NCBI GenBank assembly: GCA_017634675.1
Contig: JAGBMX010000102.1
Span: 1-57,676 of the forward strand
Length of the DNA stretch: 57,676 bases
Direction of reading: 5' to 3'
Origin: Selenomonadaceae bacterium
GTDB taxonomy: Bacteria; Bacillota; Negativicutes; Selenomonadales; Selenomonadaceae
How positions within the stretch are numbered: the stretch's first letter is position 1; each line of letters starts with the position of its first letter. Shown here one piece after another: positions 4,863 through 24,834 of the stretch. The notes under the pieces are model-generated. The model ran no database searches. It saw only the letters and a program-made list of their open reading frames with translations, and was not told the DNA's origin. The translations under genes were made by a program, and so were the position numbers.

Positions 4863-6518
4863 TTGGAAACCAAAGAAAAGATAATAGGAGCGATTAAGAT
4901 TGCCGTTGATAAAGCGGTAGAGGAAGGGCTGTTGCCCGGCGCTGAACTGCCTGAAATTCAGCTTGAGGTGCCGCCGGAAAAGTCCATGGGAGACTTTGCG
5001 ACTAATATCGCTATGCAGTCCGCTAGGGTTATGCGGCAAAATCCCAGAAAAATTGCGGAGATTATCGCAAAAAATCTTGAAGGGGATTGGCTTGAAAAGA
5101 CGGATGTAGCGGGTCCGGGATTTTTGAACATTTATTTAAAATCCAATGTGCTTTACGATTCGTTTCAGAAGATATATGAGAAGGGCGACGAGTTTGGCAA
5201 ATTGCCGCCTAAAAATGCGGGGAAAATTCAGGTTGAATACGTGAGCGCAAATCCAACCGGACCGCTTCATGTGGGACACGGTCGAGGCGCGGCTTTTGGG
5301 AGCGCCCTTGTAAATCTCCTTAGGGCGGCGGGGTATGACGTTGAAAGCGAATATTATATAAACGATGCGGGAAATCAGATGGATAATCTCGCTAAGTCTG
5401 TAAACGCCAGATATTTGGAACTTTTCGGCAAAGACGTAACATTCCCCGAAGACGGCTATCACGGCGCGGATATTGTGGATACGGCGAAACGCATAAAGGA
5501 ACGGGACGGGGATAAATATTTAACTTTGTCGGAAGATGAAAGACTTGAAATTTTTAAAGATTTGGCGTATAAGGAAAAATTAGCGGTTTTAAAAGAGGAT
5601 TTAGAAGATTTTCAAGTTACGTTTAACGTATGGTTCAGCGAAAAGACTCTTCATCCCAACGCCGTAAACGCCGCCGCCGCCGATTTGAAAGCAAAGGGTA
5701 AGGCTTATGACAAGGACGGCGCTCTTTGGTTAAAATCCACCGAATACGGCGACGATAAAGACAGAGTCATATTTAGGGACAACGGAGTTCCCACATATCT
5801 TGCCGCCGATATTGCTTACCATAAGAATAAGTTCGAAAGAGGATTTTCCAAGGTTATAAATATTTGGGGAGCGGATCATCACGGTTATATTTGTCGGGTA
5901 AAGGCAGCCATGACCGCTCTTGGGTTTGATGCGAAAAATCTTGAAATCCTTTTAATGCAGATGGTAAGCCTTTATAGGGGCGGCGAACTCGTCAAGATGT
6001 CCAAACGCACGGGGGAGAGCATAACTCTTAGGGAACTCATGGAGGAAGTCGGAGTCGATGCCGCAAGATATTTCTTCTTAATGCGTTCGGCGGACAGTCA
6101 GCTGGATTTTGATTTAGATCTTGCGAAAAAAGAATCAAGCGAAAACCCCGTTTATTATGTGCAGTATGCTCACGCAAGGATTTCAAGTATTTTGAGGAAC
6201 GCCCCCGACGCAGGGTTAAAGCTTTTGGATAAGCCGAACTTCTCTCTTTTAAAAGAGGAAGAAGAGCAGGATTTAATAAAAAAGATTGCTTCGTTTGAAG
6301 AAGAAATTGACAAGGCTGCATTTGAATATGCGCCGCAACGTATCGCAAAATACGCTTACGATTTGGCGAGCGTTTTCCATAGTTTCTACAATCATTCAAG
6401 AATCGTAGGCGTGGGAGAGGAACTGGGCAACGCCAGACTTGCCTTGGCCGCAACGACGGCGAGGGTAATTAGGTTGGCTCTTAAAATTTTAGGCGTATCT
6501 GCCCCGGAGAAGATGTAG
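4863..6518 (+). CDS. argS: Arginyl-tRNA synthetase
   Basis: A 551-residue class I aminoacyl-tRNA synthetase. The N-terminal additional domain is followed by the HIGH-type motif HVGHGR near residue 136 and the KMSK motif VKMSKRTG near residue 378. The C-terminal anticodon-binding DALR domain ends in ALKILGVSAPEKM. The start is TTG 4863 with AGAAGGA 9 bp upstream. It opens a run of same-strand genes (rpoE, pyrG) with 14-bp and 3-bp gaps, so the three may be co-transcribed. Confidence 0.96.
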   Translation: METKEKIIGAIKIAVDKAVEEGLLPGAELPEIQLEVPPEKSMGDFATNIAMQSARVMRQNPRKIAEIIAKNLEGDWLEKTDVAGPGFLNIYLKSNVLYDSFQKIYEKGDEFGKLPPKNAGKIQVEYVSANPTGPLHVGHGRGAAFGSALVNLLRAAGYDVESEYYINDAGNQMDNLAKSVNARYLELFGKDVTFPEDGYHGADIVDTAKRIKERDGDKYLTLSEDERLEIFKDLAYKEKLAVLKEDLEDFQVTFNVWFSEKTLHPNAVNAAAADLKAKGKAYDKDGALWLKSTEYGDDKDRVIFRDNGVPTYLAADIAYHKNKFERGFSKVINIWGADHHGYICRVKAAMTALGFDAKNLEILLMQMVSLYRGGELVKMSKRTGESITLRELMEEVGVDAARYFFLMRSADSQLDFDLDLAKKESSENPVYYVQYAHARISSILRNAPDAGLKLLDKPNFSLLKEEEEQDLIKKIASFEEEIDKAAFEYAPQRIAKYAYDLASVFHSFYNHSRIVGVGEELGNARLALAATTARVIRLALKILGVSAPEKM

Positions 6519-6532
6519 GAGGAGAAATTTGC

Positions 6533-6859
6533 ATGGATTATTTAACAGCTTCCGAAGCCGATGTGGCTTACGATATCTTAAAGAAGCGAGGCACGGCCGT
6601 TTATTATAAGGATCTTGTGACGGAAGTCATTGAGAAAAAGCAAAAACCCGTGCGCTCCATGTCGGCGGCCATCTCGGAGGTCTATACCCATATAAATATG
6701 GACAGCCGCTTTCACTATGCGGGGGAAGGAAATTGGGACTTAATCGAATGGGCGCCGCCCGAGGTAAAACGTCATACGAGAGTTGCTTCGGGCGAGGGAA
6801 AATCGACTTCAAAATCCTCAAAAAGAAAAGAGACTTTGTTCGAAAGTATTCAGGAGTAA
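6533..6859 (+). CDS. rpoE: RNA polymerase delta subunit-like protein (HARE-HTH)
   Basis: A 108-residue protein whose residues 1-80 resemble the HARE-HTH domain of Firmicute RNA polymerase delta (ASEADVAYDILKKRGTAVYY, INMDSRFHYAGEGNWDLIEW). It then ends in a short basic and acidic tail. The Bacillus delta subunit has a long acidic tail; this one is brief, so effects on RNA polymerase recycling may differ. Its position immediately before pyrG is the conserved rpoE-pyrG order. GGAGG precedes the ATG. Confidence 0.82.
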   Translation: MDYLTASEADVAYDILKKRGTAVYYKDLVTEVIEKKQKPVRSMSAAISEVYTHINMDSRFHYAGEGNWDLIEWAPPEVKRHTRVASGEGKSTSKSSKRKETLFESIQE

Positions 6860-22268: not shown

Positions 22269-22784
22269 TTAACGTTTAGCATTAACATTTCCTACAACTT
22301 CGTAAATCATGCCGTTTTTCCCGTGAGTAGATGACATAAGGTAAAGTGAATCAATTTCCTCCGTTCCTTTCGGCAATACTTCCGTCAATTTTTCAATTTT
22401 TCCGTCAAAAATCGCTTTTCGTACTAATGTGATATGGGGAGAAAAACGTTTTCGGTCATATTGTATATTGTTTATGGCCAAAATTCTTCTAACTCGCTTT
22501 ACAGTCGCTTCCATCTCTTCGTTTCTTCGAGTTCCCACCCAATATAAATCCCCAAAATTTCCTATACCGTCCAACTCAACGGTAAACGGAGAAAACGAAA
22601 CGGTTTCCAAAGTTTCTAAAACATAATACGGATCTTTATATTCCCCAATAAAGGCAATGGTCATATGTAAATTTTCCGTCGATACATAATGTCCTTTCAT
22701 CCCCAAAGATTGCCAATATTTTTGAATTCGCGACAATTCATTCAAAATTTTGTCGCTAAATTGTACAGCTATAAATAATCTCAT
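22269..22784 (-). CDS. thpR: RNA 2',3'-cyclic phosphodiesterase (2H family)
   Basis: A 171-residue LigT/ThpR protein. The two catalytic HxTx motifs are HMTIAFIG (about residue 45) and HITLVRK (about residue 125), with the family N-terminus MRLFIAVQFSDKI. It hydrolyses 2',3'-cyclic phosphates on RNA ends; a ligase activity is seen in vitro in relatives. It stands alone between a MITE-like element and the sugar operon. Confidence 0.9.
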   Translation of the reverse strand: MRLFIAVQFSDKILNELSRIQKYWQSLGMKGHYVSTENLHMTIAFIGEYKDPYYVLETLETVSFSPFTVELDGIGNFGDLYWVGTRRNEEMEATVKRVRRILAINNIQYDRKRFSPHITLVRKAIFDGKIEKLTEVLPKGTEEIDSLYLMSSTHGKNGMIYEVVGNVNAKR

Positions 22785-22806: not shown

Positions 22807-23070
22807 TATAAATTGTTACTATTGACGGGTAGTAAAAAAAGAAAAATATTGCTCTTCATGGTCAACCCTTCCGCCCTTCGGGCACCTCCCCTTTCAGGGG
22901 AGGCTCTCTGATTTCTCATTTTGTGGATATATAATAGAAAAGTTACCTTCACGTTGCCTCCCCTGAAAGGGGAGGGGGACCGCGAAGCGGTGGAGAGGTC
23001 GACCATGAACGGCACTAATTCGCCTTTCGCACCACTATGTTGTATTACCCGTGAATAGTAACTATAAATT
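22807..23070. mobile_element. MITE-like inverted-repeat element with 8-bp target duplication
   Basis: The element 22815-23062 (248 bp) begins GTTACTATTGACGGGTA. It ends with the inverted form, differing at one base. It is flanked on both sides by the direct repeat TATAAATT (22807-22814 and 23063-23070). Inside, imperfect inverted GC-rich blocks are arranged symmetrically, such as CTTCGGGCACCTCCCCTTTC against GAAAGGGGAGG. No coding capacity is seen. It is probably mobilised in trans. It fills most of the thpR-groEL gap. Confidence 0.8.
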
Positions 23071-23117: not shown

Positions 23118-23160
23118 AAAAAAAATCCCGCCCAAAGCAATCGCTTTGAACGGAATTTTT
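23118..23160 (-). terminator. Terminator of groESL
   Basis: On the minus strand AATTCCGTTCAAAGC pairs imperfectly with GCTTTGGGCGGGATT, loop GATT, followed by a run of T. Confidence 0.8.
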
Positions 23161-23172
23161 TAGGAGTTCATT

Positions 23173-24834
<1,662 letters not shown>

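Follow-up and report, generated by a model that had tools for sequence, protein, structure and literature searches.

The intergenic region between groEL and a thpR-like gene in this Selenomonadaceae bacterium contains a compact unit bounded by inverted and direct repeats, and raises the question of what kind of element it is and which enzyme could have moved it. A preliminary description of the locus had proposed a non-autonomous transposon mobilised by an unknown transposase that leaves 8-bp duplications. We find that the unit is a genuine MITE, a non-autonomous DNA transposon without a transposase of its own, and that its probable helper can be named. Coordinates refer to the window, the whole stretch of 57,676 nucleotides that was analysed, unless another locus is given.

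Organization of the element

The MITE is 248 bp long (22815-23062) and sits between two minus-strand genes, groEL and the thpR-like gene, at a distance of 30 bp upstream of the latter's start codon (Table 1). Exact 8-bp direct repeats, TATAAATT, abut it on both sides, as had been described. The terminal inverted repeats are 26 bp each; the earlier view of them as near-perfect holds for the outer 17-20 bp, with 16 of 17 outermost bases identical between the two ends (GTTACTATTGACGGGTA and GTTACTATTCACGGGTA), but not beyond, where the arms diverge to an A-rich sequence on one side and ACAACATAGTG on the other, so that identity over the 26 bp is 21/26. When the end motif was compared with the whole window at up to three mismatches, the two MITE ends alone were recovered, with 0.04 expected.

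The interior contains two GC-rich palindromic blocks in inverted order, and the nesting reported previously is accurate: 22885-22904 and 22956-22975 are 100% complementary over 20 bp. Because the inner blocks are inverted and complementary, a single strand can fold over nearly its full length, with a whole-length RNA fold of -120.2 kcal/mol (z -11.9) and a z of -8.3 for the DNA fold. No gene is present inside, again in agreement with the preliminary description, with no stretch of the 248-bp consensus staying free of stops for more than 82 codons. The possibility raised there that the terminal repeats are part of a larger conserved RNA does not apply, as comparison of the whole window with the Rfam families gave no matches.

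Table 1. Features of the MITE and its surroundings in the window
Feature	Position	Strand	Remarks
LigT/2'-5' RNA ligase family protein (thpR-like), neighbour gene	22269..22784	-	start codon 30 bp from MITE
Left 8-bp target duplication TATAAATT	22807..22814	.	
Left terminal inverted repeat	22815..22840	+	against right end: 16/17 over outer 17 bp, 21/26 over 26 bp
Left subterminal arm, A-rich then CTCTTCATGGTCAACCC	22841..22871	+	partial complementarity with right arm
REP-like GC palindrome block A, GCCCTTCGGGC + CCTCCCCTTTCAGGGGAGG	22872..22904	+	
Loop separating the palindromes	22905..22955	.	includes the least conserved part (0.82-0.93)
REP-like GC palindrome block B, CCTCCCCTGAAAGGGGAGG + ACCGCGAAGCGGT	22956..22995	-	inverted relative to block A
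Right subterminal arm (GGTCGACCATGAA ... ACTATG)	22996..23036	+	
Right terminal inverted repeat	23037..23062	-	
Right 8-bp target duplication TATAAATT	23063..23070	.	
Terminator-like hairpin after groEL, between groEL and MITE	23120..23161	-	
GroEL (Cpn60_TCP1), neighbour gene	23173..24825	-	

A multicopy family with 8-bp target duplications

In the host's own assembly (2.6 Mb in 157 contigs, 85% complete), the pattern GTTACTATTNACGGGTA identifies 231 ends at up to two mismatches compared with one for a reversed-pattern control, and 204 compared with none at up to one mismatch. With two ends per copy, the 231 ends would correspond to about 115 copies, or roughly a hundred. For many of the ends listed, a contig end is no further than about 300 bp away, as would be expected if the repeat interrupts assembly.

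Target duplications were counted where two ends were separated by 150-520 bp and each had 8 or more bases of flank, which leaves out copies cut by contig ends; the loci examined represent part of the 231 ends. Among the 41 distinct complete copies obtained in this way, 20 have exact 8-bp duplications, 30 have them with no more than one mismatch, and 11 have none. As a control, the flanks were re-paired 2000 times, which gave duplications in 0.86 of the 41 copies on average and in 6 at most. The length is specific, with no duplications of 4-7 or 10-12 bp and a single one of 9 bp. To judge by the intact duplications, the family has recently expanded.

A consensus was built from 32 of the 41 copies, chosen by size class and an orientation rule, and these main-class copies share a mean identity of 93.7% with it (range 81.9-98.8%). 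Size variants include shorter forms of 226-228 bp and longer ones of 400 and 472 bp, the latter enlarged by extra loop sequence that in one instance looks like a further inverted-repeat element; the longer copies (L150 1385-1856, L051 1501-1900 and L151 1141-1540) appear to have other small repeats nested there. We also observed tandem arrangements of MITE - 8 bp - MITE with the same 8-bp sequence, at G000:C1:6676 and 6909 (L031, L032) and at G000:C61:9716-10114 (L024), all near contig ends, which may reflect insertion more than once at a single site or an effect of assembly.

An unoccupied target was found for the copy on contig C22 (approximately 6426-6673; L157 1426-1673), which is flanked by the duplication AATAGATT. 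The joined flanks align through the junction in two congeners, over 733 bases in G001:C405 and over 689 bases in G002:C188 (which has further unrelated gaps upstream), and both contain AATAGATT once and no MITE. Seven loci were aligned to joined flanks in all; these two span the junction, and the alignments of the five others end 12-33 bp before it and are uninformative. The case foreseen in the preliminary description, of relatives sharing the sequence and offering no empty sites, is thus not the one encountered. Contigs C22 (L157) and C33 (L158, L012) of the host are paralogous places with similar flanks and a MITE at the same position, where the two congeners are empty, which suggests that the insertion preceded duplication of these places.

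At the groEL-thpR locus itself, the fragments recovered from G001 and G002 do not show the two genes side by side. No MITE end was seen by eye in the 321 bp from the end of groEL to the contig start in G002, for which no alignment to the window flanks was reported, or in about 500 bp upstream of thpR in G001, where a different coding stretch follows; a search for thpR in G002 did not find it. The proposal of a non-autonomous transposon is nonetheless borne out by the family as a whole, which combines a 248-bp unit lacking a transposase gene with inverted ends, 8-bp duplications of fixed length, many copies and, for the C22 copy, a site that is empty in two relatives.

Ends and deleted derivatives point to IS66

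The exact 15-mer end GTTACTATTCACGGG is present in 4 of 380 genomes of the class, which we take to be Negativicutes from the family name Selenomonadaceae: 144 times in the host, 5 and 2 times in the two congeners, and 6 times in G029, compared with five genomes, once each, for the reversed control. G029 (Selenomonadaceae bacterium RGIG5097) is a MAG from roe deer rumen that falls outside the host genus. In it, a 614-bp element with MITE-type ends (L060 904-1517) contains a 172-amino acid ORF that matches IS66 transposases over their C-terminal region (PF03050, E 7.5e-7, above cut-off; NF033517, E 1.8e-18, below cut-off as a fragment). A 331-bp element with the same ends (L064 1501-1831) retains the start and last codons of that gene, the start being assigned by its place and open frame rather than by a family match, and two further contigs begin within the last 30 codons of the IS66 gene and run into the same end. 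All of the IS66 genes lying between identical 15-bp ends in G029 are broken by internal deletion, and these elements look like internally deleted IS66 copies of the sort expected at an early stage in the birth of a MITE. The flanks of the 331-bp element match at 0 of 8 positions, giving no duplication, and the contig of the 614-bp element stops at the element's end. Among the 12 testable end pairs listed for the congeners and G029, none has a duplication with one mismatch or fewer, the best having two.

Related ends, of the form GTAACTnTTCA, and 8-bp duplications are also seen in intact IS66 elements with a single ORF. We tested nine reference IS66 loci (8 of the 30 listed plasmid matches and one Selenomonadaceae locus), six of which gave no clear solution for ends together with an 8-bp duplication. 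The remaining three each match at 8/8 duplicated positions: the Selenomonadaceae element in G004 (end GTAACTGTTCAGTAG, duplication TCAGTGTA), that of Geobacillus plasmid pHTA426 (ends GTAACTATTCAGCCC and GTATCTATTCAGCCC, duplication AACTCGTC), and one from Octadecabacter (end GTAACTCCCAAG, duplication TGTTTTTA). The pHTA426 record labels its IS66 transposase as ISGka4-like, a name that, in the excerpt of PMC8024623, is given to an ISLre2-type element; our IS66 assignment makes no use of this name and rests on PF03050 and the measured ends. In the portion of PMC12898284 dealing with ISDge4, a member of the ISBst12 group, the ends are GTGACTACTCAGCA and GTAACTGCTCAGCA with an 8-bp direct repeat CCTCGATG, and 8-bp repeats are listed for two IS66 elements in the corresponding part of PMC3281130. 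The MITE end GTTACTATTCA can thus be set against GTAACTATTCA and GTAACTGTTCA of intact IS66 elements and, as excerpted, GTGACTACTCA of ISDge4. To the extent that these sources describe it, the ISBst12 group (ISBst12, ISDge4 and the pHTA426 element) shares with the MITE the GTnACTnnTCA end and the 8-bp duplication. The MITE differs in having no transposase, where intact elements have a single transposase ORF, and after base 11, where its family reads CGGGTA and the IS66 ends read GCCC, GTAG or GCA.

Since the end sequences and the size of the duplication indicate the same family, we name with good confidence, from sequence comparison, an IS66-family (ISBst12-type) enzyme as the likely transposase. 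The 8-bp duplications of the preliminary description thus stand, but the transposase need not be an unknown one, because IS66/ISBst12-type elements share both ends and duplication. Very probably, the MITE arose from an IS66 element that lost tnpC, acquired a REP-like core, and was mobilised in trans by a single-ORF ISBst12-type transposase. In such a scheme, an IS66-type element would lose tnpC and keep its ends, REP-like GC palindromes would come to fill the middle, IS66 TnpC would bind the GTTACTATTCACGGGTA ends, and the element would be joined to a staggered 8-bp target cut, the repair of which would yield the 8-bp direct repeats; amplification to roughly a hundred copies would have followed in this Selenomonadaceae lineage. 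We infer the mobilisation in trans by TnpC, the order of these events, and any present or past activity.

A less attractive explanation is that the helper is a transposase of some other IS family that leaves 8-bp duplications, and that the end is shared with G029 by coincidence or later recombination. In its favour, PF03050 has no matches in the host assembly, where no helper gene was found, or in the two congeners, although it is present in 10 of 60 relatives, and genome, phylum and viral-contig searches yielded no intact IS66 element whose end is exactly GTTACTATTCACGGG. The IS66 fragment of G029 likewise had no match among 398 phylum genomes at E≤1e-15 or in viral contigs and phage records; nor did the exact 17-mer end in viral contigs, or the MITE in phage records. 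However, the absence of an IS66 gene is weak evidence because the assembly is 85% complete and repeats assemble poorly, and the helper may simply be missing, lost or unassembled; equally, the helper may be gone and the family now silent. Against a helper from another family, two differently deleted derivatives of one G029 IS66 gene have the same 15-bp end, this end is exact in only 4 of 380 genomes, and intact IS66 elements, including those known from excerpts, also combine GTnACT..TCA ends with an 8-bp duplication. We therefore consider it improbable and favour the IS66-type enzyme.

A REP-like core within transposon ends

REP and REPIN elements consist of paired inverted GC-rich palindromes dispersed over many intergenic places. 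The MITE has paired inverted GC-rich palindromes that are likewise dispersed, but here they lie inside an element with transposon ends. The preliminary description counted the GC-rich blocks as part of the transposon signature; instead, they are a separate, REP-like repeat. Fragments of about 40 bp covering the palindromes alone have matches in many relatives whose genomes are without the end motif, and the MITE has matches at E≤0.001 in 19 of 60 relatives, compared with 5 of 60 for the end motif. The palindrome unit (blocks A and B) is also found in 11 Sphingomonas/Sphingobium plasmid records, in up to 11 places in one of them and mostly at 87-93% identity, and in one Deinococcus plasmid. Elements in the congeners retain GC palindromes within similar ends, although the palindrome sequences are different.

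Among the 32 main-class copies, agreement with the consensus is 98.7% in the palindromes, 97.1% in the outer 17 bp and 90.9% at other non-terminal positions. None of 10,000 position shuffles reaches the gap between palindromes and the rest, a gap that is seen with all four bases individually, but this is suggestive only, because positions are not independent and the copies share a history.

Could the palindromes themselves drive the spread, for example through a REP-associated transposase, rather than the IS66-type ends? Sphingomonas plasmids and other Selenomonadaceae do contain the unit without MITE ends, and it is the best conserved part of the MITE; however, the duplications in the host genome lie exactly at the outer ends, and at the host loci examined 80 of 82 palindrome cores have a MITE end no more than 260 bp away, one of the remaining two cores resembling a MITE remnant. 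This makes palindrome-driven spread very unlikely. A reading of the unit as mainly a structured RNA or a regulatory hairpin, dispersed and retained for a role in the host and with ends that only resemble those of a transposon, would accommodate the strong RNA fold and the higher conservation of the palindromes (0.987 against 0.909), but is contradicted by the 8-bp duplications in most copies and the empty site in two relatives, as well as by the lack of an Rfam match and by interiors that differ between species with the same ends, and we give it scarcely any weight.

Relation to known MITEs and implications

Both MITEs and IS66 elements are well established, and the family described here adds one more to a known class. 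MITECca01, an IS982-derived MITE with 169 copies (PMC9769881), and MITEPsy1, a bacterial IS-derived MITE (PMC3189936, which also names REP/REPIN in passing), are, in the excerpts of these sources, similarly shorter than 300 bp, with inverted ends in common with a parent IS and no gene; MITECca01 also shares the high copy number. As far as those excerpts go, the MITE reported here differs from both in its IS66-type ends, 8-bp duplications and REP-like core, and in the absence of the parent from the host assembly. We found no description of an IS66-derived MITE in the open-licence literature, a scope that leaves aside most subscription papers and is not proof of absence.

The hybrid make-up, with IS66-type ends around a REP-like core, is the one unusual point of this MITE. 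Tentatively, and with considerable doubt, we suggest that it could be a working chimera, in which IS66-type ends carry a cross-phylum REP-like module (found in Selenomonadaceae and on Sphingomonadaceae plasmids) whose sequence would be constrained for spread of the MITE or for protection of the host; it might act, for instance, as a bidirectional terminator or as a signal formed by folded DNA.

These observations put a name to the probable helper of a MITE of high copy number that had looked orphaned, and pair IS66-type ends with a MITE family, a combination for which the open-licence literature gave us no printed description. They also explain in part why the assembly is fragmented, since copies lie at many contig ends. 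The conserved REP-like core within a transposon provides an example in which the hitch-hiking of one repeat on another can be tested.
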